Below are positions 2,959 to 58,788 of a stretch of 58,788 nt of DNA, one piece after another; positions within the stretch are counted from its first letter, which is position 1; each line of letters begins with the position of its first letter. Location: positions 1-58,788 of the IMG/VR virus record IMGVR_UViG_3300020420_000017. One strand, written 5' to 3'. The DNA comes from a virus. The notes beneath the pieces were generated by a model. It saw nothing but the letters and a program-made list of their open reading frames with translations. It was not told where the DNA came from and ran no database searches. The position numbers and the translations under genes were made by a program.

Positions 2959-3375
2959 TCAGTCCTGTAGTAATTTTGGAAATGCCTCCTCTACTATCGG
3001 CCTGCTTAGCCCGTTTGGTTTTTTCTTATTGATCATTGAAATAACAATTTTTGCGTCTTCAGGATGCACACCTTCTAGTATACCTATGAATATTTGTTCT
3101 CTCTTAACAGCAGGCAACTTATCGCCCGGACCACCTTTTACAAAGTATTTAAATTTTTGATTTTCTTTTGTTAAATTTGCAGGGTGGAAATGTGATGGTG
3201 ATGGCGTATATGGTGGTTGGCCGTCAGGCAAGTTCCATAATACTTTTGAATCCATCGTTCCTCTTAATACATCTTTAAGAGCCCATGTTTCATTCTCTTT
3301 TAATATTCTAATCTTATCATCACGATTACGTTGTTTTGCCACTTCTTCAAGCACTTCATAAACATACTGTTTCAT
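2959..3375 (-). CDS. Conserved T4-like protein of unknown function (DUF6433-like)
   Basis: This 138-residue protein has a Pro-rich middle (LPDGQPPYTPSPS) followed by FVKGGPGDKLPAVKREQIFIG. The late section includes LEGVHPEDAKIVISM. I recognise this pattern from conserved hypothetical proteins next to RNase H in marine T4-like phages. The assignment to DUF6433 is from memory. Its start overlaps the RNase H stop, so the two are probably co-translated. Confidence 0.6.
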   Translation of the reverse strand: MKQYVYEVLEEVAKQRNRDDKIRILKENETWALKDVLRGTMDSKVLWNLPDGQPPYTPSPSHFHPANLTKENQKFKYFVKGGPGDKLPAVKREQIFIGILEGVHPEDAKIVISMINKKKPNGLSRPIVEEAFPKLLQD

Positions 3376-44713: not shown

Positions 44714-45059
44714 CAATAATATCTTTTTTCAAAAGTTTTTGAAGCTCAGTTGTTGAACCTACAAAAAGATTATTAGTAGTATTTGCTATTTTTTGAATTT
44801 CATCTTTCTTATCTAAATCTTTTTTCTTTTTATTAAGGTCCATCAATCTATCATTAACATCAGAAATATTCTTAATCATTCCTGATAGTACTTCAAAAGC
44901 TCGAGGGTGCTCACTTTCTCTGGCTACTTCAATCATAAGCTCAAGACTTTCTTTACCCTTTTCAACTAACTCATAGTAAGTGTCACGAGAATATTTGTAG
45001 TCGTTATCTACATTTTTCTCTTCAGGAGGAAGAAATTTGTCAATATCACTTTTACTCAT
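44691..45059 (-). CDS. 16: gp16 small terminase
   Basis: The protein has 122 residues (T4 164). It contains NVDNDYKYSRDTYYELVEKG, then helices with KNISDVNDRLMDLNKKKKDL and NNLFVGSTTELQKLLK, a set I recognise from marine T4-like gp16. It regulates gp17 and recognises DNA. It overlaps gp17 by 23 bases. Confidence 0.85.
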   Translation of the reverse strand: MSKSDIDKFLPPEEKNVDNDYKYSRDTYYELVEKGKESLELMIEVARESEHPRAFEVLSGMIKNISDVNDRLMDLNKKKKDLDKKDEIQKIANTTNNLFVGSTTELQKLLKKDIIDVTPKSK

Positions 45060-45451
45060 AATTGAACTAATTCACGATTCTTTATATGTTCTTCTTCTAT
45101 TTCTTTTTTTGATTGTCCGTGGTATCTTACAGCATGATGTTTTTCAATCATTTTTTCATTGATATTAGTTTCAAATGTCCATAATTCTCCAAGTATTCTG
45201 CCAAACTTACCTTTTGCATCTTTATGAGTTTTTATCGTTAACTCACCAGCTCCAGTCCATTTTAATAAAAAATCTTTTGCAGCATTACCATATTTTTTTT
45301 CTATCAAGTTTCTTGTTCTTGATTCAGGAGTATCAATACCATACAATCTTATTCTTTGTTTTCTTAGCCATACGCCAAACCCTAGGTCTATATCGACATC
45401 TACAGTATCGCCGTCTATTACTCTTAAAAGTTTACATTTATATTCAAACAT
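45056..45451 (-). CDS. Staphylococcal-nuclease-like (thermonuclease) protein
   Basis: The protein has 131 residues. It starts YKCKLLRVIDGDTVDVDIDL, then RIRLYGIDTPESR with Arg35, Asp40 and Glu43, and KFGRILGELW with Arg85, all matching the Ca2+-dependent nuclease catalytic set (Arg35, Asp40, Glu43, Arg87). It should cleave DNA or RNA. Sitting between gp15 and gp16 in the packaging block, it may degrade host nucleic acid late or act in packaging. Confidence 0.9.
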   Translation of the reverse strand: MFEYKCKLLRVIDGDTVDVDIDLGFGVWLRKQRIRLYGIDTPESRTRNLIEKKYGNAAKDFLLKWTGAGELTIKTHKDAKGKFGRILGELWTFETNINEKMIEKHHAVRYHGQSKKEIEEEHIKNRELVQL

Positions 45452-47361: not shown

Positions 47362-48117
47362 TCATCCTACAAAAAAGTCTGGTGGAAGCTCTTGCTCTAA
47401 TCTTAAGTTTTCTCTTAACCTTTCAATTTCTCCTGTCGCATCATCATATATTTGTCTTCCATTTAAAACGACTCCTCCTGGTAACTGCATGCCTTCAAAT
47501 TTAATTAAGTTGGTGCCCCATTGTTGCTTTATTAATGCAGTTGTATATTCTTTAACAAATATATCATTAAAAACAGAAGTGTGTGTATTAGGATCAACAA
47601 TAGAATAAACTTCTGCTACTATGTAATCACCTGCTTTTATATCGCCGTCTGCAAAATCACCAAAGATATATAATCTATTTTGTCTTCTTGAAAATTGAAC
47701 TTGTGGGTGACCATTTAATTTCATGTCTAAAAGAGAAAGATATTGCTGCATCTGTTCATAATATGCTAAGTCTCCAGCAAAGTTCATTAGATCTGCAATA
47801 TCATTTAACATCATTTGATATTTTATATCAAAAAAGTTTCTAGAATTATTAAATGAACTTGTAAGAGGAAACATCTTTGAGACAAATAAAATATTATTTG
47901 AAAGAGAAATATATTCATTTGAAACATCAGTTGCAGTTATCTGATGTTTTAAATAAGTTCTAATTGTGGCATCAGAATGAAACTCTTGATAATACTGTAG
48001 CGCTTCGTCTACTCTATCTTCGACTTGATCTTCGTCTACATTTAATTCTATTACTGGTTCGCCTAGCCTTCGCTTACAGTAATCTATAAGAGTTATTCTG
48101 GAATTAGGGACAGCCAT
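47362..48117 (-). CDS. 13: gp13 neck protein
   Basis: The protein has 251 residues (T4 309). It starts SRITLIDYCKRRLGEPVIEL and has VEDRVDEALQYYQEFHSDA and KEYTTALIKQQWGTNLIKF, standard T4-like gp13 patterns. It seals the head after packaging together with gp14. Late promoter L6 precedes it. Confidence 0.94.
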   Translation of the reverse strand: MAVPNSRITLIDYCKRRLGEPVIELNVDEDQVEDRVDEALQYYQEFHSDATIRTYLKHQITATDVSNEYISLSNNILFVSKMFPLTSSFNNSRNFFDIKYQMMLNDIADLMNFAGDLAYYEQMQQYLSLLDMKLNGHPQVQFSRRQNRLYIFGDFADGDIKAGDYIVAEVYSIVDPNTHTSVFNDIFVKEYTTALIKQQWGTNLIKFEGMQLPGGVVLNGRQIYDDATGEIERLRENLRLEQELPPDFFVG

Positions 48118-48134: not shown

Positions 48135-48506
48135 CTATTTATAAGGACTTGTTCCTAAAACATCCTCATCCCATGCTGCTTTTAATGCTGTAATATTGAC
48201 AGCATTTGTTATCGCTGCTGCAGCTGGTGCGTCTCTAAGTTTCTTCTTCTTTGCTACGCTTGCCGCTTTTGCAGTCGCATCATCAGCTTCTAAAGCTTTC
48301 ATGTACACAACATCTTCTGCTTCAAGTAAAGGTCCTCTTACTTCTCTTATCTTATCTTTAAATATTACTTTTGCTGCAGTTAAGTCTTCAGTGATAGCTG
48401 TTTGTTCGCTATCAAATACCCATGCATTTCTGAAGTGTCTATCAGAAGGCTTAGTGGATGGAACGGCAGCAATCACTCCATCTTTATCTTGAATCATCGT
48501 AGTCAT
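48135..48506 (-). CDS. Tail-fibre assembly-chaperone-like protein (Ala/Lys-rich)
   Basis: The protein has 123 residues. It has SDRHFRNAWVFDSEQTAI then IFKDKIREVRGPLLEAED and an Ala-rich end, the layout of the DUF4376/tail-assembly-like proteins. The FRNAW motif also ends the next gene upstream (48517-48984), suggesting an old split of one coding region or recombination at this motif. The end contains late promoter L6. Confidence 0.6.
   Translation of the reverse strand: MTTMIQDKDGVIAAVPSTKPSDRHFRNAWVFDSEQTAITEDLTAAKVIFKDKIREVRGPLLEAEDVVYMKALEADDATAKAASVAKKKKLRDAPAAAAITNAVNITALKAAWDEDVLGTSPYK
48136..48143 (-). promoter_or_regulatory. Late promoter L6 (TATAAATA) for gp13
   Basis: The exact TATAAATA lies in the last codons of the chaperone-like gene. 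It leaves a leader of about 13 bases with AAGGA before the gp13 ATG. Confidence 0.8.
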
Positions 48507-48516
48507 CTTTCTCTCC

Positions 48517-48984
48517 TTATGCTACTTCTTGATTAATCTTCCAAGCATTTCGCCACGTTCTATGACTTGGTAGATTTTGTTTCTTACAAATTACTAATCT
48601 CTTACGATTAGATCTCTCATAGTTTCTCCATACTCTTTGTGGTATGTCTTTCATAATCAAATACTCAATCGCTTGTTCTTCAGTCATCTTGTCGACTGGT
48701 TTTGTATTATGTAGTAGATAACCTCTAGTATGTTTCTTAAAATCTGGTTTTGCTTCATCTTTAGCCAAAGCCCAATAAACTTCTACCGGTGGAAGTATAC
48801 CACCTTGTAAAGCACATGCTAACCAGTTTGGATCTGGTATCGTAACTTTTGCAGGTGCATCCGGTTCTTCTGGATCTTCCCATATTACTCTGTAATCACT
48901 TTGTACACCATCTAAATTATCTTTAGCCCAGTGTAATCTATTCCATAAATGTGTTCCCTGAAATTCAGGTGTTTCAATTGTCAT
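48517..48984 (-). CDS. Conserved tail-region protein of unknown function
   Basis: The protein has 155 residues with a Pro/Asp/Glu-rich section (EDPEEPDAPAKVTIPDPNW) and PPVEVYWALAKDEAKPDF, then EEQAIEYLIMKDIPQRVW and SHRTWRNAW at the end. I recall similar proteins next to tail fibres in marine phages. It is coupled to the upstream fibre protein and may assist assembly. Confidence 0.6.
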   Translation of the reverse strand: MTIETPEFQGTHLWNRLHWAKDNLDGVQSDYRVIWEDPEEPDAPAKVTIPDPNWLACALQGGILPPVEVYWALAKDEAKPDFKKHTRGYLLHNTKPVDKMTEEQAIEYLIMKDIPQRVWRNYERSNRKRLVICKKQNLPSHRTWRNAWKINQEVA

Positions 48985-49391
48985 GCTAAATCTCCTAATA
49001 CCATTGATGATGCATTTTGATTGTTATCTGTTAAAGCATAGCTATATTTTTTAAATGATGTTCCATAGCCAGTTGTAGCTTGATCTACTGAATCATCTAT
49101 ATTATGTACAAATATACTCCCACCGTCTTGTTTATCATCACCACTTGAAACAACTGCATAATCTCCATTGGCCATATTATTATTAATTTGCGGAGCGTAT
49201 TTTCCAACAGCTGAATCAGTTACAGAACTCATGTTAAAAGAATCAACCACATTAACTGCTGCAGCGTATGTTCTTACCCATGCTTTACACAATCCACTTT
49301 GCATATTAGTTGTAGCAGTACCTTCACCACGAACGTTAACGGAACCAGCGGTTGTCTTACCTTGTATAGTATCTATAACTAATGTACTCAT
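48981..49391 (-). CDS. Tail-fibre tip-like protein, LQQGL family (copy 1)
   Basis: The protein has 136 residues from the ATG at 49391 (MSTLVIDTIQGK), overlapping the upstream stop. It has GEGTATTNMQSGLCKAW, then a beta-rich globular part, and ends VLGDLA. The same GEGTATTNLQQGLAK block occurs in the next two upstream genes and at 54629-55078. I infer a receptor-binding or virion-surface role. Confidence 0.6.
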   Translation of the reverse strand: MSTLVIDTIQGKTTAGSVNVRGEGTATTNMQSGLCKAWVRTYAAAVNVVDSFNMSSVTDSAVGKYAPQINNNMANGDYAVVSSGDDKQDGGSIFVHNIDDSVDQATTGYGTSFKKYSYALTDNNQNASSMVLGDLA

Positions 49392-49828
49392 GCCAATACT
49401 CCGTGCATAGTGCTTGATTGCTCTACCCATTGATATAATGTTCCTGCATAACAAGTTATATATCTTAGATTACCACTATCTGAAGTGGTCTGTCTTTTTC
49501 TACATGATGCGTCACTGTTTCCTCCATCATATCCACCTGTCCAACCCCAAGTATGATTCATACTTGAAAAATTGTTTGTGTAACTAATAGTTATATCAGC
49601 AGAACCATTATCAGTAGTGCCACTAACATTCATGCTTTGGCCATTATCTATTGCACCATCACCATTATTACAACAATAAACTTTTGCTAATCCTTGTTGT
49701 AAGTTTGTTGTAGCGGTGCCTTCGCCTTGTATCGTAACTTGACCAGTATTTGATATAATCATAGAGGTCGTATCAGAATCATACTTTAGATTTGTAACTT
49801 CAATATTTGTTCCTACTATTGTACTCAT
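49388..49828 (-). CDS. Tail-fibre tip-like protein, LQQGL family (copy 2)
   Basis: The protein has 146 residues and starts MSTIVGTNIEVTNLKYDSD, a type of N-terminus shared by many proteins in this array. It has GEGTATTNLQQGLAKVY followed by a variable C-terminal domain with several Cys residues (VYCCNNG; SCRKRQ). It is ATGA-coupled on both sides. Confidence 0.6.
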   Translation of the reverse strand: MSTIVGTNIEVTNLKYDSDTTSMIISNTGQVTIQGEGTATTNLQQGLAKVYCCNNGDGAIDNGQSMNVSGTTDNGSADITISYTNNFSSMNHTWGWTGGYDGGNSDASCRKRQTTSDSGNLRYITCYAGTLYQWVEQSSTMHGVLA

Positions 49829-50295
49829 GCTAGATCTCCGTGCACTGTTCCTTCAACAAAATCACAATCAACTGCTGCGCCTCCTCCAGTATTATTACTA
49901 TGATATAAAGTTTTAAATTGAACATAAGTTGTCGCCTTGTAGCTTGAAGCATTATCATAAAACATATGAGCTATTTGATTAGATGCTTTACAACAAAGAG
50001 TATTAGCCATAAAATTAATGCTTCCCATATTATTTGTATAATTAAGTGTATAGTTACCTGTTGCATTATCAGTTATAGAACCAACATTATGACCATCTCC
50101 TAAAGAAACAGTTCCCGCTGTTCCATCAAAAGAAAATGTCGCTTTTGCTAACCCTTGTTGTAGGTTAGTTGTTGCAGTACCTTCACCCTGTACGACTATA
50201 GATCCTGCAGTCGTCTGTCCTTCTAAGACATTAGTCTTGATCTTATATTGACCTGCAACGTTTTTAATTTCATCTACTTTTATTTGACTTGGCAT
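49825..50295 (-). CDS. Tail-fibre tip-like protein, LQQGL family (copy 3)
   Basis: The protein has 156 residues and starts MPSQIKVDEIKNVAGQYKI. It has GEGTATTNLQQGLAKATF, then a Gly/Asn/Thr-rich beta domain and the end VHGDLA. The block before residue 60 is very similar to copy 2; the rest differs, as expected for a variable receptor-contact domain. Confidence 0.6.
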   Translation of the reverse strand: MPSQIKVDEIKNVAGQYKIKTNVLEGQTTAGSIVVQGEGTATTNLQQGLAKATFSFDGTAGTVSLGDGHNVGSITDNATGNYTLNYTNNMGSINFMANTLCCKASNQIAHMFYDNASSYKATTYVQFKTLYHSNNTGGGAAVDCDFVEGTVHGDLA

Positions 50296-50305
50296 ATCTT
50301 TATCC

Positions 50306-50812
50306 TCATGCTGGTCCTATTCTATAACCTTCCAAGCCATTTGAAGTTCTACCTGCTTGTTTATTTTTGGTTGAACCTTGTCCATGATAGCCATAAGGTA
50401 AAATTCTATCCCCTGACACTAATTTAACAATACCATGTGCTTGGACACTTGGATATGCTCCAGTTGTTTGGCTATAGTTTGCTACTTCATGTTGAATTGT
50501 ATTTGTTGATGAGCCATCTGCTTTTCCTATATATATCCAAGATATAAGTCTAAAAGGCACAGCATTATCCAAAGAAAACTTGCTACTAATCCACCAATAC
50601 CCTGCAGTAGCTGAAGTAATTACAACACGATTATTAGACAGATCAGTAATGCTATGAGTATCCCACTCAACAGTATCATAAGTAAGAGCAGTAGTTGTTG
50701 CATTAGATAATGATTGTGTTGCACTATTAAACATACGAAAAGTACAAGGTGTTACATCTATTACACCACCACTCGTCTTTGGCTCTATTATATCTACTGC
50801 TATAGTGCTCAT
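50306..50812 (-). CDS. Tail-fibre tip-like protein, C1q/jelly-roll type
   Basis: The protein has 168 residues and starts MSTIAVDIIEPKTSGGV. It has TALTYDTVEWDTHSITD, RVVITSATAGYWWISSKFS and ISWIYIGKADG, the strand order of C1q/TNF-like jelly rolls that form trimers. It is coupled to the 56-residue gene upstream. A tail-fibre tip is the likely place. Confidence 0.6.
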   Translation of the reverse strand: MSTIAVDIIEPKTSGGVIDVTPCTFRMFNSATQSLSNATTTALTYDTVEWDTHSITDLSNNRVVITSATAGYWWISSKFSLDNAVPFRLISWIYIGKADGSSTNTIQHEVANYSQTTGAYPSVQAHGIVKLVSGDRILPYGYHGQGSTKNKQAGRTSNGLEGYRIGPA

Positions 50813-50979
50813 ACGACTACTAGCCTTCCTCCGCTGTTAACTGTCAGTGTTACTCCACTCGCAACTGTAATCGGTCCTGCTATCATCGCATTTTCTGTAG
50901 CTTCGATAGTTACGTTTGCAGTTACTTCTTTAAGTGTAATCTTAAATCCTATTCCTTTTCCTATTCTACTTAATGCCAT
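50809..50979 (-). CDS. 56-residue free C-terminal fibre module
   Basis: The ORF runs from the ATG at 50979 to a TGA overlapping the next start. The product MALSRIGKGIGFKITL... continues with NAMIAGPITVASGVTLTVN. This closely matches the C-terminal 30-40 residues of three other fibre proteins in the array (53182, 56150, 58151). It is a stand-alone copy of that module. Confidence 0.6.
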   Translation of the reverse strand: MALSRIGKGIGFKITLKEVTANVTIEATENAMIAGPITVASGVTLTVNSGGRLVVV

Positions 50980-50999
50980 TTTAATTTATCCTATATAAT

Positions 51000-51647
51000 T
51001 TATGATGAGGCTCCAAAAGCTGTTATCCAAATTTGTGGTTGATGAAACTGATTACTGCCGCCACCGTCAAAATATTGCGATCCGTGCATTCTTTCTATGC
51101 CGTTTCCTCCGTATGCTCTACTCGCCCACTTCATGGTTTTAGCAGATGACCAACTTGGTACAGCTCCAGTATTTGAATCTTGACCGCTTAAAGAAGAATC
51201 TATTCTAAAATACCATTGACACATTGGCTTTGATTCATTATAGTAACCAGCATGAGTACGGCGACCATAAACAACCTCTGTTCCTTCTAAGTATAATCTA
51301 TAATGCTGAATAGAATGAGCAGTATCGTTCCACGCGGCGTTGTGCAAAAACTCGTACATTACACCTATGCAATTTGAAGGAGCCGTGTAAGTTACAGTAG
51401 ATCCATCTACGTCTACATAACTTGTTCCATTGATAAGTTGATACGCAGTAACTGTAGGTAAAGTAAAAGTAGTTCCACTTTTTGTAGTTCGAGTAGAACC
51501 ATCACACATACCGCCAATTTTTTCTAAGATATTTCCACTTGAAAAATTAGTAATAGTCATACTACCACCTGTAGTAGTAGGAAAAACTATCATGTCACTA
51601 TCACTATTTGGTTTTTGAATCTTATCTACTTTTAGTATACTTACCAC
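51000..51647 (-). CDS. Tail-fibre tip-like protein
   Basis: The protein has 215 residues with a GTG start (51647) after CCGGAG. It begins VVSILKVDKIQKPNSDSD, the array N-terminal type. The C-terminal part is beta-rich with many Trp, Tyr and Gly residues. No exact family is recognised. I infer a role in binding the host surface. Confidence 0.6.
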   Translation of the reverse strand: MVSILKVDKIQKPNSDSDMIVFPTTTGGSMTITNFSSGNILEKIGGMCDGSTRTTKSGTTFTLPTVTAYQLINGTSYVDVDGSTVTYTAPSNCIGVMYEFLHNAAWNDTAHSIQHYRLYLEGTEVVYGRRTHAGYYNESKPMCQWYFRIDSSLSGQDSNTGAVPSWSSAKTMKWASRAYGGNGIERMHGSQYFDGGGSNQFHQPQIWITAFGASS

Positions 51648-51650
51648 TTT

Positions 51651-51941
51651 TTACTCCGGTTTTGTTGGCCATGTGATATTGCTTAACGCGTCATCGGCTG
51701 GAGTTGTCTTTGTAATATCTCTTAGAGCTTGTCTGTAAGTCTTCCAATCTGCAGACATTGTGACGTCTGAGTTTCCCATCCAATCAGTTTCAGCTAAGAG
51801 TCGATTACGTTGCTCTCTTAAATCAGCCATTCTACGTGCAGGTGCACCGTCAGCCCACGCTTGTTCTTCAAGATCTCTTGCGGTTTCTTCTTCTGCCGTA
51901 AACTGGATCCTTTCTCCGTTTACCATCTTAAATCTTGGCAT
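51651..51941 (-). CDS. Phage tail assembly chaperone-like protein (copy A)
   Basis: The protein has 96 residues. RNRLLAETDWMGNSDV, then WKTYRQALRDITK and WPTKP is the signature of tail-fibre assembly chaperone-like proteins. Two more copies (53388, 53800) lie in the array. They probably help fold or attach the neighbouring fibre proteins. Confidence 0.7.
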   Translation of the reverse strand: MPRFKMVNGERIQFTAEEETARDLEEQAWADGAPARRMADLREQRNRLLAETDWMGNSDVTMSADWKTYRQALRDITKTTPADDALSNITWPTKPE

Positions 51942-51950
51942 TTTTTTCTC

Positions 51951-52544
51951 CTATTGAAAATAACATTTAAATGCTCCTGAATCTAAATTTCCATTACCGG
52001 GATAACAACGTACTGTAGTAAGATCAGTTACTGAACCAAGATCAACAACTCCTGCTCCTACAATACATCCATCAGGATAAGCACTACTGTTAACGTGATT
52101 ATTAAATATCCAGTATCTACCATCTATTGTTAAAAAGCGTGCAATACCATTAAAAGTATTTGCAGCGCTATTGTAACCAGATGCCATTTGAAAAGCTGAT
52201 GTTGCATTTGTTCCAGCTGCAGCTGTAGCATGAACATATGCACTTCCTCCAAGATAACCAGAGGTTAATACTCCACTTGAATTACCAACTCTCCAATAAA
52301 GCTCTGCAGTTCCAGTACCACTTACGTTACGATATGTTACAGTTACAAGTTTAGTTCCGCTTGGTACCGTAAAGTCCACTTGCCCTACTTGAGATGATAT
52401 TGTACTTACTGCCAAAGTAGAAAATTTATAATTCGTTGTTTTTATATCTGACATGACACCATCAGATGCTATAGTAAAAGCCGTGGTGTCAGAATCAAAC
52501 TTAATATTCTGAGTTTCGATATTTGTTACAACTAATTTACTCAT
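51951..52544 (-). CDS. Tail-fibre tip-like protein
   Basis: The protein has 197 residues and starts MSKLVVTNIETQNIKFDSD, close to copy 2 of the LQQGL family in its first 20 residues. It has TVPSGTKLVTVTYRNVSGTG and a jelly-roll-like C-terminal domain. The stop and start overlaps fit translational coupling. Confidence 0.6.
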   Translation of the reverse strand: MSKLVVTNIETQNIKFDSDTTAFTIASDGVMSDIKTTNYKFSTLAVSTISSQVGQVDFTVPSGTKLVTVTYRNVSGTGTAELYWRVGNSSGVLTSGYLGGSAYVHATAAAGTNATSAFQMASGYNSAANTFNGIARFLTIDGRYWIFNNHVNSSAYPDGCIVGAGVVDLGSVTDLTTVRCYPGNGNLDSGAFKCYFQ

Positions 52545-53182
52545 TACTTAATTCCGTATAGTTTAACTGTTCCACTAGATATATCTCCGCTATTAAAATA
52601 AAACCTATATCCATTTATAACTGAAGAGGCCTGTGTGTTTATTAACGAACCAAATGCATTGTAACCACCATGAGAACCACTAGTACTGTAACTGTTAACT
52701 CCTCCTTCATAATTAAAATTAAAAGATGTATTATTTACATGTTTTAAATGAATTCTACCAGAAACAGCTTCACCTGTTGAATTTCCAGTATTGTCGTGAG
52801 TGTATATAAAGTAATCATTACCGTTTGAATTTGTAGAACCATGGACGGGGCTACTAGTTTCATAAGCGTATATAGCACCAGTTTGCAATACACCTCCTAT
52901 AAATACTCTTGAATACAATTTTACACCATCACTTGCTGGTTTAAAGGTGAAAGACATAATGTAATCATCATATGTGGCATTTATGTGAGTGGATGAAATA
53001 TCATATGCTGAAACTGCACTCGATATTGTAGCATCCAATAATTTTACTGTAGCGGTGCCAGTAACAGTTCCACTAAAAGTAACATTCTTTGGAAACGTAA
53101 TATTACCAGTCCCATCAAGACTTATGGTATCACTATCTAATCCTGTTCCTCTTATCTTATCTACTTTTAAAATACTTGCCAT
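52544..53182 (-). CDS. Tail-fibre tip-like protein
   Basis: The protein has 212 residues. It starts MASILKVDKIRGTGLDSD, then GNITFPKNVTFSGTVTGTA and a beta-rich domain (DYIMSFTFKPASDG; INGYRFYFNSGDI). The N-terminal block is similar to the gene at 51000. It probably is a receptor-contact protein. Confidence 0.6.
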   Translation of the reverse strand: MASILKVDKIRGTGLDSDTISLDGTGNITFPKNVTFSGTVTGTATVKLLDATISSAVSAYDISSTHINATYDDYIMSFTFKPASDGVKLYSRVFIGGVLQTGAIYAYETSSPVHGSTNSNGNDYFIYTHDNTGNSTGEAVSGRIHLKHVNNTSFNFNYEGGVNSYSTSGSHGGYNAFGSLINTQASSVINGYRFYFNSGDISSGTVKLYGIK

Positions 53183-53388
53183 TATACTATACTTAGGTTA
53201 CCTTGTAATGTTAACGTTTGGCCGCTATCAATCGAAAGAGGACCAGCAACCATAGCATTCTTATCAGAATCAATTGTAACACTCGTATCAAGGTTTTGAT
53301 CATTTAGTCTAAAGACTACATTAGATCCTGTAGGAAAAGCTTTTTCCGTAAGAAAACCTGACTTTGCTGTCTCTCTTGCTCTCGTCAT
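53182..53388 (-). CDS. Short fibre protein with the IDSG C-terminal module
   Basis: The 68-residue protein ends with SVTIDSDKNAMVAGPLSIDS and then GQTLTLQGN. The first 30 residues (ARETAKSGFLTEKAF) are unlike other copies. It is coupled to both neighbours. It shows that this module travels with different N-termini. Confidence 0.6.
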   Translation of the reverse strand: MTRARETAKSGFLTEKAFPTGSNVVFRLNDQNLDTSVTIDSDKNAMVAGPLSIDSGQTLTLQGNLSIV

Positions 53389-53762
53389 TAACTAGCTCTT
53401 GTTGGCCATGTTACAGATGAATCAACTAATTCACCTGCTGCGTCTGTGGTTGGTTTCGCAGAAGCTGGTAGGTCTCTTAGAGCTTGCATATAAGTCTTAA
53501 GCTTTTCATCAACTGCAACTCCTGATGAGTACGCCTTTATAACTTCCCAATCTAAAGCCGTAAGTTTTGCATCTCTTTCAACGCGAAGTAATCTCATTCC
53601 TTCTGCTGCATCCATTTCTGCAATTTTGTCGGTTACTTCTTTTTCTGTTGGAACAGTTTGACTCTTGTCTAGCCATTCTAATCCAGACCATGCGTCACCT
53701 CTTAGAACCCATGAAGCTCCCGGCTTAAGAGCTTGAAGTGCGGCTGCTATATCATATTTCAT
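53388..53762 (-). CDS. Phage tail assembly chaperone-like protein (copy B)
   Basis: The protein has 124 residues. It has KLTALDWEVIKAYSSGVAVD then LKTYMQALRDLPA and VTWPTRAS, the chaperone signature, with an extra N-terminal section (KYDIAAALQALKPGASW). Late promoter L7 drives it. Confidence 0.7.
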   Translation of the reverse strand: MKYDIAAALQALKPGASWVLRGDAWSGLEWLDKSQTVPTEKEVTDKIAEMDAAEGMRLLRVERDAKLTALDWEVIKAYSSGVAVDEKLKTYMQALRDLPASAKPTTDAAGELVDSSVTWPTRAS

Positions 53763-53784
53763 TTAAGTCTCCTTTTAATATGAT

Positions 53785-53792
53785 TATTTATA
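53785..53792 (-). promoter_or_regulatory. Late promoter L7 (TATAAATA) in the fibre array
   Basis: The exact TATAAATA precedes the chaperone gene at 53388-53762 with a leader of about 17 bases containing AAAAGGAGAC. It splits the fibre array into at least two late units. Confidence 0.82.
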
Positions 53793-53799
53793 CTACTAT

Positions 53800-54036
53800 C
53801 TATGGTTTATCTGGAAACTTAAAACCAGTAGCATTTCCTTTTTCATCTTTTTCATTCATACTTGAAAATTTTTTCGTTATGTCTCGTAACTCTTGTCTAT
53901 ATGTTTTCCATTCGTCTGGAACTGCAATCCCAGCTTCTAAAGCATTCACCACTACCCAGTCGCTTTGAGTTAACAAATCATTTCTGACATTTCTTAACAT
54001 CAATAGTTCTGTTTCTGATTTAGATAAATCTGCCAT
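53800..54036 (-). CDS. Phage tail assembly chaperone-like protein (copy C)
   Basis: The protein has 78 residues. NVRNDLLTQSDWVVVNAL, then EWKTYRQELRDITKKF and the end FKFPDKP show the same signature as copies A and B. Its start overlaps the stop of the gene upstream. Confidence 0.7.
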   Translation of the reverse strand: MADLSKSETELLMLRNVRNDLLTQSDWVVVNALEAGIAVPDEWKTYRQELRDITKKFSSMNEKDEKGNATGFKFPDKP

Positions 54037-54629
54037 TAGCCTTTAATCTCTTGTAAAGTTAAATTACATGTTGCCATGTGTGCTTCTTCATTGTTGTAGT
54101 TATATCCGGAACCATTTTTAACTAAAGTCTTAGTACCACCTACATGAGAAACAACACCTTGTATGTTATAAGTAATTGCAGAAGTCGTACTTGGTGAGTC
54201 TGCAAAATGAAAAGGTACAACATGTTGTCTTGATGCCGAGTACCCAGCGTCTTTTACAACCGAATGCATAGGCCTTGAACCAGTCGCATCAGCGCCATGT
54301 ACCGTTGTTAGCGTAGACAAAGAGGTCGGCTCTCCTATTACCGTACTTCCTCTTTTTAATCTCACTCCTATATAATCAAGTCTACTACTAAAATTACTAT
54401 ATAAGCCTCCTACATGTAAAAATCCAAAAATAAGAATTTTACTACTTGTTGCTGAAGGAGTTATTGAAGCACTCATTAATGTAACTGGATTGGCTCCACT
54501 TATACCGGTATGAGATGATGCAGTTCCATCATGACTAGTTATTGTTTGTAATATTGCGCCAGTTGGCATAGAAGTCAACGGTGTTTGATCTAAATCAACT
54601 AATCTTGGTTTTGCTCTTTGTATCGGCAT
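54036..54629 (-). CDS. Tail-fibre tip-like protein, STTSAITY type
   Basis: The protein has 197 residues. It has PTGAILQTITSHDG, SASITPSATSSKILIFGFLH and HFADSPSTTSAITYNIQ. The TPSxTSSKIL and DSPSTTSAITY blocks recur in two further proteins of the array (55075, 57633). The fold is probably a jelly-roll trimer and the role receptor binding. Confidence 0.62.
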   Translation of the reverse strand: MPIQRAKPRLVDLDQTPLTSMPTGAILQTITSHDGTASSHTGISGANPVTLMSASITPSATSSKILIFGFLHVGGLYSNFSSRLDYIGVRLKRGSTVIGEPTSLSTLTTVHGADATGSRPMHSVVKDAGYSASRQHVVPFHFADSPSTTSAITYNIQGVVSHVGGTKTLVKNGSGYNYNNEEAHMATCNLTLQEIKG

Positions 54630-55078
54630 TATGCTAACTTTCCTATCACTTGTCCTGCGTGGTATGGTCCATCTTGTCCACCAAAACCAGCATTGCCTAA
54701 GTTAAATTCATATGTAGTAGTTGAAAATTGATTATCATCTACCCAAGAAGAGTATCCTGCTGTAGCATCTCCTCCACAATCAGATAATGAAAACAAAGAC
54801 GTACTCATGGCACTCGTCATTGCAAATTTAGTTGCACCGGTAGTAATGTCAGTAAGTGATGAATGATTAAAACTTTCAGAACCGTGTATTGCAGTAGTAG
54901 AACTCGTTGTGTAACAAACATATGCTTTTATTAATCCTTGTTGCAGATTAGTCGTTGTACTACCACCATCACTCGTAACATTAATAGAACCTGCAGTATC
55001 AATACCACTTAACTGATTGACCTTAACATCATTACCACCTTGATTGTTTTTGATCTTATTTGCAAATATCGTACTCAT
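54629..55078 (-). CDS. Tail-fibre tip-like protein, LQQGL family (copy 4)
   Basis: The protein has 149 residues. It starts MSTIFANKIKNNQGGNDVKV, with GSTTTNLQQGLIKAYVCYTT and the end QVIGKLA. It is related to the three copies at 48981-50295, with a different C-terminal part. It is ATGA-coupled upstream. Confidence 0.6.
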   Translation of the reverse strand: MSTIFANKIKNNQGGNDVKVNQLSGIDTAGSINVTSDGGSTTTNLQQGLIKAYVCYTTSSTTAIHGSESFNHSSLTDITTGATKFAMTSAMSTSLFSLSDCGGDATAGYSSWVDDNQFSTTTYEFNLGNAGFGGQDGPYHAGQVIGKLA

Positions 55079-55563
55079 TGTGCGATCTCCTGAGCAATAA
55101 TATGTGATGGCTCATTAGCTATATTGTAGTAATGAGTTCCTCCGCCCGAAGCTAACATGTATACTGCATAAGTTGTCGCGCTTGTAGTTGATGGTGAATC
55201 TAAAATAATCATAGTTGCATTTGTGTCTCTACTATTGTTATCATAAAATCTACCCATGCCATAAGTGCTATTTCCTAAATTAGTTGAACCTCTATATAAT
55301 GTATAGGTGATAAGTCCCGAAGTTGCGCACTGAACTGGAACTACAGCGGATACTAAAATTTTACTAGATGTTGAAGTAGGAGTTATCGATACAGAGGTTG
55401 AAGTTGCAAAAAAACTTGAAGCCGTAAATGAAGTTTCAGTGGCAGCAGTTCCGGAAACAACTTGAATTACATGACCAGGCGCCCGTAATACATCTCCACT
55501 TGCGATTGTGATAGCATTTCCAGTTCTTGCCGCAATTTTATTTACATTTATTTGACCGGTCAT
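55075..55563 (-). CDS. Tail-fibre tip-like protein, STTSATTY type
   Basis: The protein has 162 residues. It has GHVIQVVSGTAATETSF, SVSITPTSTSSKILVSAVV, LDSPSTTSATTYAVYM and the end IAQEIAQ. It is closest to the genes at 54036 and 57633. It probably forms a trimeric surface protein. Confidence 0.62.
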   Translation of the reverse strand: MTGQINVNKIAARTGNAITIASGDVLRAPGHVIQVVSGTAATETSFTASSFFATSTSVSITPTSTSSKILVSAVVPVQCATSGLITYTLYRGSTNLGNSTYGMGRFYDNNSRDTNATMIILDSPSTTSATTYAVYMLASGGGTHYYNIANEPSHIIAQEIAQ

Positions 55564-56150
55564 GTTGTTGTGTACTCCAAATATATTTTACCGCCTTGAA
55601 AAGTAGCACTACCAGCAACTGTCGTCCATTGAACTCTGTCAAGTGTTCCACCTAAATCGATATAACCGATACCACTGTTATGATAGTAACTATTATTAGA
55701 CATTAATTTACTTGTGATTAAATATCGGTTTGTTGTACTAATCATTTTTCTAACTTCATAATAACCCCACACACTATAAGATGAACCAGATGCACCGTCC
55801 ATATAAGTGTCACACCCTGCAGTTTGCCCTTCGGTATATACACTTCCACCGGCAGAATTTGCTAGTACTCTCCAATCGTATCCACTAGTTGCTATACTTC
55901 CTGCACCAATTCTAAATCTTGATTGAGTACTACCATTTTTATATGTTCCATCAATGTATAGTCTTACACAATGCGCATTTGACGGAATACTACTGATAGT
56001 ATTTTCAGTGCCTGACATTGACTCAGCATTTCCTGTTACTATTTTTTCTCTTTTATCTACTGAAAAAGACACAGAACCATCAGTACCTACTTCAAATGCG
56101 TCAGTTGCATTAGTATGTTGTATCTTTGTTAATCCTACTATTCCTGCCAT
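55560..56150 (-). CDS. Tail-fibre tip-like protein
   Basis: The protein has 196 residues. It starts MAGIVGLTKIQHTNATDAFE, then a jelly-roll-like domain (VRLYIDGTYKNGSTQSRFR; YKNG region) and ends QGGKIYLEYTTT. It may contact the receptor. The stop overlaps the next start. Confidence 0.6.
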   Translation of the reverse strand: MAGIVGLTKIQHTNATDAFEVGTDGSVSFSVDKREKIVTGNAESMSGTENTISSIPSNAHCVRLYIDGTYKNGSTQSRFRIGAGSIATSGYDWRVLANSAGGSVYTEGQTAGCDTYMDGASGSSYSVWGYYEVRKMISTTNRYLITSKLMSNNSYYHNSGIGYIDLGGTLDRVQWTTVAGSATFQGGKIYLEYTTT

Positions 56151-56914
56151 TATACCACCGTAAAGTTTCCGTTAACCGTTATACTAACACCAGAATCGAC
56201 TGTGATTGGTCCGATTACTGATGCATTTTTACCAGAGTCAATTGTTATGCTACTAATAATATTTTGTGAGTTAACTCTTATTGGTACATTATTTATAACT
56301 AATGATGAATCTAAGTTAGAGACCTGCACTGCAGCATCGGCAAGTGTACCATTTGTTACCGAACCTGTGACTGGTGTAAATACACCTGCTTTAACACCAA
56401 GATCAACAACTCTTAAAACTGAGTTAGAGTCAAGAGCAGAATCAAATGATATTGTACTTCCACTTAGAGTAAAATTATTTTGAGCCTGTACTACACCATC
56501 AATACTTACTAATAAAGCACCTTTTGCAGATGGTGTAAAATTTAAACCACAACTATCAGACTCACCAAGAAAAGTTCTTGTAAATTCTGAAAACGTTTTT
56601 AAGTTAGCAGCTAACATGTCTGCTGTAACACCACCTGTTACAATTGGTGGTCCACCTACATCTCCCATAATCATAACGAAACAAGAGTCTCCAGAATCAG
56701 GTGCTGTACTAAATGCTAAATTATTACCACCTGCTTCTAAGTTATAATCAGTACTTGGATTTTGTATCACACCGTTAAGCGATACGATTAACTGATTTAC
56801 GTTACCGACTTGCTTACCAAGAGGGAATGCAGCGGTCGAAGCGTTAAAAGTCCATGACGATACGTCGACTTTTCTAAACTCTCCAAACGTTGGTTGTCTT
56901 CCTATATACGCCAT
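56150..56914 (-). CDS. Longer fibre protein with duplicated beta units and IDSG module
   Basis: The protein has 254 residues. It starts MAYIGRQPTFGEFRKVDVSS, then two repeats of a fibre-type unit (LIVSLNGVIQNPSTDYNLE near residue 45; LLVSIDGVVQAQNNFTLSG near 130). It ends with SSITIDSGKNASVIGPITVD plus SGVSITVNGNFTVV. The N-terminus resembles those that attach small fibres to a larger tail structure. It may be an adaptor. Confidence 0.62.
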   Translation of the reverse strand: MAYIGRQPTFGEFRKVDVSSWTFNASTAAFPLGKQVGNVNQLIVSLNGVIQNPSTDYNLEAGGNNLAFSTAPDSGDSCFVMIMGDVGGPPIVTGGVTADMLAANLKTFSEFTRTFLGESDSCGLNFTPSAKGALLVSIDGVVQAQNNFTLSGSTISFDSALDSNSVLRVVDLGVKAGVFTPVTGSVTNGTLADAAVQVSNLDSSLVINNVPIRVNSQNIISSITIDSGKNASVIGPITVDSGVSITVNGNFTVV

Positions 56915-57636
56915 TATTTTACCTTGTAGAGCGCATAACCGTAGCTGGTAAAAGCAGTTATACTGTTAGTTAAAAAATAAAATCTATCCATTTTTGCAGT
57001 CTTAGCGACAACAAAACTTCCGGAAGTTTCGTAATGATAAGCGTCGTTATGTCTTTTTTCTACAGTGTTCATATATTTGCATCTTGTATATCTTGTGGTT
57101 TCATTAGTATTATAGAATTCAAACTTAAAAGTTGTCATTTCAAAATCATCGCTTCCATCACCGACAAATCCACCTGTAAATAACGCAAAATTGTTTCCAT
57201 CTACATCGCCTTGAGGTGATACACCAGATCCTGAATTATTTGAGTACGCATAAGCGCCCAAATACCTGTAATCTGTAGATCCCGCGACTGCACCAGATTC
57301 TCCAAGTTCTCTAACTCTTCCAGCCCAATATGTGTTCGACGCCGTGGTACTCTTTACGCCATTAAGATGTAAAATTAAATGATTAAAATCTTCAGTAGTA
57401 GGTAAAGTAATTTCTATTTGAGTAACGCCTGTCACGGTTGCAGAAGAACTTGAAAATTTTTCCATAGCGCCTGCTCCACTTATCGTGCCTGTAAATGTAT
57501 AATCACCTGTAAGATCTAATTCAGATGAACCTATTGCGTTTGCAGGTATCTTAGCAGAAGTCACAGCGTCAGCAGCGATCTTTGCTGTAGTTATCGCGTT
57601 ATCTTGAAAACTTGCCGCTCTTAACTTAGTTGTCAT
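56914..57636 (-). CDS. Tail-fibre tip-like protein with SAKI repeat N-terminus
   Basis: The protein has 240 residues. The N-terminal 50 residues have an ITTAKIAADAVTSAKIPANA repeat typical of phage fibre shafts. A beta-rich globular domain follows (FNHLILHLNGVKSTTASNTY; FKFEFYNTNETTRYTRCK). It is a good candidate for carbohydrate or receptor contact. Confidence 0.65.
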   Translation of the reverse strand: MTTKLRAASFQDNAITTAKIAADAVTSAKIPANAIGSSELDLTGDYTFTGTISGAGAMEKFSSSSATVTGVTQIEITLPTTEDFNHLILHLNGVKSTTASNTYWAGRVRELGESGAVAGSTDYRYLGAYAYSNNSGSGVSPQGDVDGNNFALFTGGFVGDGSDDFEMTTFKFEFYNTNETTRYTRCKYMNTVEKRHNDAYHYETSGSFVVAKTAKMDRFYFLTNSITAFTSYGYALYKVK

Positions 57637-58154
57637 CCTGCCACCTCAAATGCTGTTATTGTTGAAAACGAACCAGTTCCACCATTGTTTATCCTTCCAG
57701 TATTATTACCTACTTTAAAATAAGGTTGATATGTTATTGCCGAAGTAGTATTTGGTGAATCTAAAATTTGTAATGTTGCATGGCCATAGTTATAACTACT
57801 TCCGCTAAATAAATTTCCAAAGCCTCTTGTAGGTTCCCCTAAATTTGTTGAGTCTCTAAATAAAGTTAGAAATATAGAATGTGTACCAGTTGGACTTCCA
57901 TATGACATACTACATGTAACAAATATTTTATTTGATGCAGACGATGGAGTTATAGAAACTGACAAAGTATTTGATGCAGCAACAAATGACGTAGATGTAG
58001 TTGTTCTTTCTGTACTATCTGTAGCAGTGACAACTTGTAATATCTGACCCGGTGCAACAATAGATCCTGCAGCACCACTTATCTTATTTCCACTTGCTAT
58101 ACTAACAGTACTTCCGGTTGCCGCTTGTATTGTATTTGTCTTTAACGTGCTCAT
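57633..58154 (-). CDS. Tail-fibre tip-like protein, NTTSAITY type
   Basis: The protein has 173 residues from the ATG at 58154, four codons after an in-frame ATG at 58166 and just after GGAG. It has GQILQVVTATDSTERTT, SVSITPSSASNKIFVTCSM and LDSPNTTSAITYQPYF. It belongs to the family of 54036 and 55075. Confidence 0.62.
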   Translation of the reverse strand: MSTLKTNTIQAATGSTVSIASGNKISGAAGSIVAPGQILQVVTATDSTERTTTSTSFVAASNTLSVSITPSSASNKIFVTCSMSYGSPTGTHSIFLTLFRDSTNLGEPTRGFGNLFSGSSYNYGHATLQILDSPNTTSAITYQPYFKVGNNTGRINNGGTGSFSTITAFEVAG

Positions 58155-58705
58155 ACTATACTCCATTCACCATTGACTGTTACTGTAAAACCTGAATCAA
58201 TCTGTATCGGTCCTGCGCTCATACCATTACTCGCAGAGTCAATCGTAATGTTTTCTGCAATATTATTTGCGTTCGTTCTTATTATTGAATTAGTTCCTAG
58301 CCAAGGTGTATTAGTGTACTTAACTGCTTGATTTCCAGTAGGTTGATCAGAACTACTTAGTGTTACTGTTGGTGCTGCGACTCCACCTGTAAATGTATCA
58401 CCGCTTCTTTTTGCAGATCCACCTACATCAGTTACCGTGACTTGTGTAACTTCAACCACTTCCAATATATCATTTAAAAACGCTGCAGTTGATAATACTA
58501 CGTTTGAACCTGTAGTCGTGAAGTCACCTTCTGGAGAAAGTTTAGCGCCGTTTAAGAATACGTGGCTTGAACTATCAACACCTGATAATGAAACACCGTT
58601 CGCATCATTACCACTAAAAGTTGTTTGACCTTCAGTAGCGGTAAATCTAAATCTTGTAGTTCTTAACTCTACAGTTTGATTTGCATTTGAACCTATATAA
58701 CTCAT
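58151..58705 (-). CDS. Fibre protein with IDSG C-terminal module
   Basis: The protein has 184 residues. It starts MSYIGSNANQTVELRTTRFR and ends ITIDSASNGMSAGPIQID then SGFTVTVNGEWSIV. The first half has the adaptor-type beta units of 56150. It overlaps its neighbours by four bases each. Confidence 0.62.
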   Translation of the reverse strand: MSYIGSNANQTVELRTTRFRFTATEGQTTFSGNDANGVSLSGVDSSSHVFLNGAKLSPEGDFTTTGSNVVLSTAAFLNDILEVVEVTQVTVTDVGGSAKRSGDTFTGGVAAPTVTLSSSDQPTGNQAVKYTNTPWLGTNSIIRTNANNIAENITIDSASNGMSAGPIQIDSGFTVTVNGEWSIV

Positions 58706-58788
58706 GCTAAATCTCCAAAAACTCCTACACTCATTGTATTAAAATCTGAGAGAGTAGAAGCATTATATGCTACTCCTGTAAAATTATA
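58702..58788 (-). CDS. Partial fibre protein (5' end outside window)
   Basis: Only the last 28 codons are in the window, ending VGVFGDLA and a TGA that overlaps the next start. The GDLA end matches other LQQGL-family proteins at 48981 and 49825, so the array continues to the right. Confidence 0.5.
   Translation of the reverse strand, partial: YNFTGVAYNASTLSDFNTMSVGVFGDLA

Follow-up and report, generated by a model that had tools for sequence, protein, structure and literature searches.

Introduction

Host choice in most known phages depends on one to a few large fibers. Here we analyze an array of small genes at positions 48135 to 58788 of IMG/VR virus record IMGVR_UViG_3300020420_000017 (58,788 bases from an uncultured marine virus related to T4, called the window below); among relatives it shows a constant gene order, conserved N-terminal anchors, wholesale replacement of C-terminal tips, tip movement across slots and lineages, and tip ends that carry Shine-Dalgarno sequences. 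Pelagimyophages and cyanomyophages have the closest described locus, the host recognition cluster (HRC), which, in the available text of its account, lies between VrlC and the neck gene, is hypervariable, and contains tail fibers and putative receptor-binding proteins (RBPs) (PMC7029224). The array occupies this known T4-like locus: it directly adjoins the neck gene gp13 on the 5' side, within a T4-like block of structural genes. Its anatomy, however, looks undescribed, as slots, fixed anchors, swapped tips, and Shine-Dalgarno-bearing gene ends, all present here, do not appear in the available text of that account. HTVC008M and Melnitz also differ from it, with long fibers and few small genes at this locus.

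Several known fibers share single features with the array. T4 fibritin (wac) likewise combines a conserved N-terminal attachment domain with a replaced C-terminal domain, but it is one gene per phage, has a coiled-coil shaft, and its swaps are described as ancient and no longer going on (PMC3797505); here there are at least 13 such genes, no shaft is seen in the two modeled families, and shared tips are up to 94% identical. Pam3 gp24/gp25 combines a short trimeric fiber, whose receptor-binding domain is tumor necrosis factor (TNF)-like, with a phage chaperone of its own (PMC9608196), and a TNF-like domain is predicted here too, in the DSPSTTSA family only. However, Pam3 has one fiber with an alpha-helical N-terminal docking domain, whereas the array has many proteins, with short nonhelical anchors (in the two modeled families) and shared chaperones. 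The branched complexes of Ackermannviridae and Alcyoneusvirus RaK2 also carry several RBPs per virion with conserved N-terminal docking domains, and gene acquisition alters host recognition (PMC11414711, PMC10253068), but they consist of four to five large tailspikes (Ackermannviridae) or nine fiber proteins (RaK2) instead of genes of about 130 to 240 amino acids (aa) in an operon of 20 to 40 genes. Thus, the locus, the anchor with a swapped tip, and the TNF-like fiber with its chaperone are already known, and what looks new is the many-slot rack of small tips, of which we found no earlier description in the literature searched, mostly outside subscription journals.

Fixed and variable genes of the array

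The array lies on the minus strand and is transcribed from 58788 toward 48135 (gene order 58705 to 48135); gp13 starts 17 bases past its end. Our count is 22 small genes and, at the record end, a partial one; 15 junctions are ATGA or TAATG overlaps, and a further junction overlaps by 16 nucleotides (nt). This agrees with an earlier note, made from the letters of the window, that had reported about 20 short overlapping genes; the 56-aa gene S15 (Table 1) was absent from its list. The record end truncates the array; in one relative (G001) it fills about 22 kb between a 1,533-aa repeat protein and gp13 and numbers about 40 genes. The assignment of the neck gene comes from tblastn matches to its counterparts in C48C1, Melnitz, HTVC008M, and cyanophages. 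By terminase, the nearest named phage is C48C1 (67%), and megablast of the array region against named phages gave no match.

Relatives were viral contigs from metagenome assemblies, fetched with gp13 and the genes at 48517, 53388, 56150, and 53182 as queries, and their open reading frames were called by a simple script. Slot comparisons used nonredundant contigs, about 10 to 20 relatives, and set the first 24 residues against residue 45 onward. Some relatives that are close by gp13 (88 to 91%; L004 and L018) have a few long fibers of up to 1,249 to 1,854 aa where the array would be; others have the same array in the same gene order, and more distant viruses (L189, L191, and L192; gp13 68 to 69%) follow the same design with largely different anchors.

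Across the relatives the genes fall into two classes. The fixed genes (chaperones, small beta proteins, 48517, and 48135) are about 79 to 97% identical, both ends alike. In the 13 variable genes, the slot-specific anchor (residues 1 to 24) is 71 to 95% identical, while the tips are nearly unrelated (26 to 35% identity in 12 slots, and 49% in S16, which has three members), and the drop in identity is located at residues 25 to 45, approximately. Codon differences in the anchors are 18% synonymous and 19% nonsynonymous, against 26% and 17% in the fixed genes; by these counts, the anchors are under purifying selection at the protein level, somewhat weaker than that in the fixed genes. The C-terminal domains had been called variable from the window, and because the same slot in relatives keeps its N terminus and changes its C terminus, this variability is more than paralogue divergence. 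The slots are conserved one to one, and the tips are not; the outcome that the earlier note named as refuting its idea, strict one-to-one conservation with no shuffling, is therefore not what the relatives show.

Replacement and movement of tips

The tips change by all-or-none domain replacement, not by drift. Among 694 within-slot pairs, tip identity is below 0.5 in 667 and at least 0.7 in 25, with only 2 at 0.5 to 0.7, whereas fixed genes range from 0.6 to 1.0. At the DNA level, the window and L165 are about 100% identical across the S2 tip and the S3 anchor, unrelated in the S3 tip (about 56917 to 57476), and again 92 to 100% identical from the start of S4; the same sharp-edged replacement is seen against L090 at S17 and S19. 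Moreover, slots such as S5, S6, S11, and S14 switch families among relatives.

Nearly identical tips also occur under different anchors. The S7 tip of L165 matches the S17 tip of L085 (93.5% over 108 aa), the window S6 tip matches S2 of L172 (90% over 122 aa), S2 of L157 matches S6 of L156 (88% over 143 aa), and S7 of L158 matches the MSRVV slot of L157 (83% over 115 aa). Four contigs carry the window S6 tip at 90% identity, and wherever their slot S2 is complete, the tip is in that slot; each other swap was seen in a single contig pair. Since independent contigs (four for one swap) show these matches, it is unlikely that the cross-slot matches are assembly chimeras. Between lineages, the S14 tip shares 80% identity over 192 aa with L189:9300, which has a different anchor and comes from a virus whose gp13 is 69% identical; a search for further copies of this tip in viral contigs gave nothing new. 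The S8 tip and its 78-aa chaperone recur as a pair in L010/L106 and L096, again under a different anchor. At the sequence level, the swappable tips and the reservoir proposed in the earlier note are thus strongly supported by conserved anchors, replaced tips, and movement between slots and lineages.

In L172 (9225-9991), L158 (2462-3228), and L164 (1145-1911), two genes come after the S3 slot, one chaperone-like (68 aa) and one of 185 aa (MNxxKEQLWATPYFYS); they form an accessory pair that goes with this S3 tip.

Tip endings and the next start codon

The ends of the tips show a codon choice that differs from the rest of these genes. LQQGL tips end in GDLA, where GGA encodes the Gly in 80 of 81 cases, against 38% elsewhere in the genes, giving GGAGA before the overlapping ATG. 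Similarly, DSPSTTSA tips end in (Q/M)EIAQ, with GAG as the Glu codon in 55 of 64 cases (20% elsewhere), giving GGAG. The next start is overlapped by 78 of 80 GDLA ends and 35 of 43 EIAQ ends. In the conserved endings (GDLA, QEIAQ), the Shine-Dalgarno sequence of the next gene is encoded as well. Because the tip ends carry this ribosome site, tips could be exchanged without loss of downstream translation.

Protein families and predicted structures

All-against-all protein comparison bore out the LQQGL, DSPSTTSA, and chaperone families seen earlier. LQQGL comprises 48981, 49388, 49825, and 54629, and DSPSTTSA comprises 54036, 55075, and 57633; the chaperones 51651, 53388, and 53800 score 53.6, 46.5, and 38.5 bits against PF16778 (Pfam gathering cutoff, 26.6; E values from 2e-14 to 1e-9). 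A fourth family (53182, 56150, 58151, and 50809) was added, whose members are small beta proteins with the same motif at the C terminus. In PHROGs the LQQGL and DSPSTTSA families are labeled tail-fiber related, and several matches fall at the C-terminal ends of long fiber or virion-protein profiles: phrog_6942 (566 to 707 of 708), phrog_5342 (3187 to 3319 of 3319), phrog_29482 (336 to 473 of 477), and phrog_13989 (461 to 578 of 597). By tblastn against named phages, an LQQGL protein gave a single weak Microcystis phage match, and the matches of 55075, none reaching 60% identity, were confined to Melnitz phages and two pelagipodophages. Two genes within the range of the earlier note, 48135 and 48517, are fixed and without fiber similarity.

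The monomer model of 55075 (predicted local distance difference test score [pLDDT], 92.5) matches the folds of the Pgp3 C-terminal domain, the BC2L-C and PLTL TNF-like lectins, and the LamB-bound lambda gpJ tip, and a TNF/lectin-like fold is predicted for the DSPSTTSA family. By sequence, the family matches residues 478 to 658, the C-terminal end, of PDB 9efk "orf22" (658 aa, 18 chains); the chain number is consistent with six trimers. We found neither a linked paper nor a source virus for this entry. The LQQGL model (pLDDT 77.5, above 90 in residues 51 to 100 and at the end) matches viral tail-fiber models. In both models the anchor lacks regular structure, with no helix in residues 1 to 50 (LQQGL) or 1 to 31 (DSPSTTSA), and no coiled-coil shaft helices are seen.

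Proposed function and rival explanations

According to the above-described comparisons, we consider it likely that the array encodes small adhesins of the virion, in which the docking end is fixed and the receptor-contact end is exchanged by recombination. Each slot-specific anchor (about 25 to 50 residues) would attach its protein to one set position on the tail, baseplate, or neck, and the C-terminal beta domain, probably a trimer, would contact the host surface. The conserved chaperones and small beta proteins of the operon may serve whatever tips are present. Exchange would proceed by recombination, presumably homologous, through conserved anchor DNA, neighboring genes, and the junction of a gene end with the next start; the incoming tip would sustain translation of the next gene, as its last codons double as a ribosome-binding site. 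An effect on host range would follow.

Virion display and host contact have indirect support from the fiber-family and fold matches, the chaperones, and the position before gp13. Several observations weigh against this interpretation. Structure prediction covered monomers of two families, LQQGL and DSPSTTSA; no solved structure matches the LQQGL family with confidence (Foldseek of its model against PDB gave nothing significant), and the fold evidence does not extend to S5, S11, S12, S14, and S16. Near-identical contigs (98 to 100% DNA identity) show almost no tip change, and no swap in progress was caught; therefore, frequent swapping is not supported.

The array proteins could instead be neck or collar whiskers (fibritin-like) or head decorations, serving general surface binding or fiber control and not host specificity. 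The array lies directly before gp13, and in T4, wac adjoins gene 13. Fibritin, the collar-fiber protein of T4, has a conserved neck-binding domain of about 50 N-terminal aa and a swapped C-terminal domain (PMC3797505). On the other hand, the number of tips (about 13 to 25 in each virus, from several families), the tail-fiber chaperones, the matches to tail-fiber ends and lectin-like folds, and the lack of a visible coiled-coil shaft in the two modeled families make whiskers an improbable account, though the most plausible of the rivals. Secretion is a weaker candidate still: tips placed at the cell surface against competing phages (superinfection exclusion), or released as soluble blockers of the host surface, would recall the surface-modifying genes of pelagimyophage HRCs, proposed in the available text of that account to prevent coinfection (PMC7029224). 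By eye, the conserved anchors show no clear hydrophobic signal, and the structural-block position, slot-specific anchors, and chaperones fit particle assembly, so we give this idea little credence.

The variation itself might come from ordinary rapid divergence, driven by diversifying selection and with no domains replaced, and within-slot tips are indeed usually 26 to 35% identical and often of the same family. All-or-none identities, sharp DNA breakpoints, near-identical tips under different anchors, and family switches in slots contradict it, leaving it very improbable. A dedicated engine (diversity-generating retroelement or invertase/shufflon) that rewrites tips would also target one protein end, yet here whole domains are replaced and not codons. 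No reverse transcriptase, resolvase/invertase, or tyrosine recombinase was found in the window or in three relatives, including a 123-kb contig, all incomplete records, and no inverted repeats of at least 22 nt occur in the array; such an engine seems the least probable explanation of all.

If the tips are indeed exchangeable virion adhesins, the virus may alter host contact one small part at a time. A bolder version, which is possible but which we slightly doubt, is a combinatorial adhesin rack: each virion would show from a dozen to about 25 different tips at positions set by the anchors, and single slots would be refilled, from a pool that marine T4-like viruses have in common, by self-contained cassettes (anchor DNA, the next Shine-Dalgarno sequence and start, and sometimes a cognate chaperone). 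Host range could then shift in small steps without complete loss of adsorption, which would bear on how marine T4-like viruses follow surface changes of abundant bacteria. The fixed anchors offer a sequence tag to find tips in metagenomes and to count tip turnover in time series. The contrast with the few long fibers of T4, drawn in the earlier note, would apply to the many small tips; long fibers may nevertheless coexist, because the 1,533-aa repeat protein lies upstream of the G001 array, in a region beyond the window.

Features of the array and additional observations

Table 1. Genes of the array and its gp13 border (N/C, identity among relatives of the anchor part and of the rest)
Gene	Coordinates	Strand	Assignment	N/C	Remarks
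gp13	47362..48117	-	neck protein	.85/.87	right-hand array border, conserved
S21	48135..48506	-	fixed gene	.81/.81	phrog_20196 E 1e-28; fiber similarity none seen
S20	48517..48984	-	fixed gene, 155 aa	.86/.87	at least 594 IMG/VR relatives; fiber similarity none seen
S19	48981..49391	-	variable tip gene, LQQGL/GDLA family	.83/.35 (14 relatives)	anchor MSTLVIDTIQGKT; phrog_11355 tail fiber
S18	49388..49828	-	variable tip gene, LQQGL family	.95/.33	anchor MSTIVGTNIEVTN
S17	49825..50295	-	variable tip gene, LQQGL/GDLA family	.87/.34	anchor MPSQIKVDEIKN; predicted beta domain from residue 51; intragenic breakpoint vs L090
S16	50306..50812	-	variable tip gene	.72/.49 (3 members only)	phrog_13989 C-terminal end
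S15	50809..50979	-	fixed gene, 56 aa, shared C-terminal beta motif	.90/.97 (8 relatives)	
S14	51000..51647	-	variable tip gene	.89/.33 (window copy outside that count)	GTG start
S13	51651..51941	-	fixed tail-fiber assembly chaperone	.88/.80	PF16778 E 2e-14; phrog_4912
S12	51951..52544	-	variable tip gene	.88/.27 (15 relatives)	anchor MSKLVVTNIETQN
S11	52544..53182	-	variable tip gene, YGIK-type ending	.83/.32	anchor MASILKVDKI
S10	53182..53388	-	fixed beta protein, 68 aa	.91/.90 (15 relatives)	
S9	53388..53762	-	fixed tail-fiber assembly chaperone	.88/.83	PF16778 E 3e-12
S8-tip companion	53800..54036	-	chaperone, 78 aa		PF16778 E 1e-9; most relatives without a copy at the same place
S8	54036..54629	-	variable tip gene, DSPSTTSA family	.71/.29	phrog_6942 C-terminal end E 2e-11
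S7	54629..55078	-	variable tip gene, LQQGL family	.72/.35	
S6	55075..55563	-	variable tip gene, DSPSTTSA/QEIAQ family	.81/.32	predicted TNF-like fold; PDB fold matches
S5	55560..56150	-	variable tip gene	.72/.32	anchor MAGIVGLTxIQHTN; GDLA tip instead in most relatives
S4	56150..56914	-	fixed beta protein	.83/.83	phrog_18673 tail fiber E 8e-31
S3	56914..57636	-	variable tip gene	.85/.26	tip replaced vs L165
S2	57633..58166	-	variable tip gene, DSPSTTSA family	.74/.35	phrog_6942
S1	58151..58705	-	fixed beta protein	.79/.87	phrog_5342 C-terminal end
partial	58702..58788	-	tip gene, 3' end, ends GDLA		cut by record end; relatives have the MSRVV slot (ends GDLA) here

S19 likely starts with the ATG at 49391 rather than with the TTG at 49454. 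The S20 protein is without a match in Pfam and PHROG. The beta motif of S15, S10, S4, and S1 reads roughly IDSxxNxxxxGPIxIDSGxxVTVNGxxxIV, and these four fixed genes might be sockets or connectors for the anchors.

The T4 late-promoter-like TATAAATA occurs on the coding strand at 53785-53792, before 53388, and at 48136-48143, before gp13. The window has 15 copies, of which 14 lie on the minus strand, and the total is not above chance. A curli gene, sought as a host hint, is absent. Between the sheath stabilizer and terminase genes, 45056-45451 encodes a small protein with a staphylococcal-nuclease-like start (VIDGDTVDVDIDLGFGVW) that is conserved in relatives. In L055, L067, and L081, an opposite-strand block replaces the fibers before gp13, and its genes look like sugar-nucleotide and surface-modification genes. 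The G001 repeat protein (L177:6967-11568), directly upstream of the array, contains many copies of the repeat DAGGDGSFxYDSATGxFTYTGPSASEVRAHF, and in G003 and G004 the array comes after proteins whose ends are similar.

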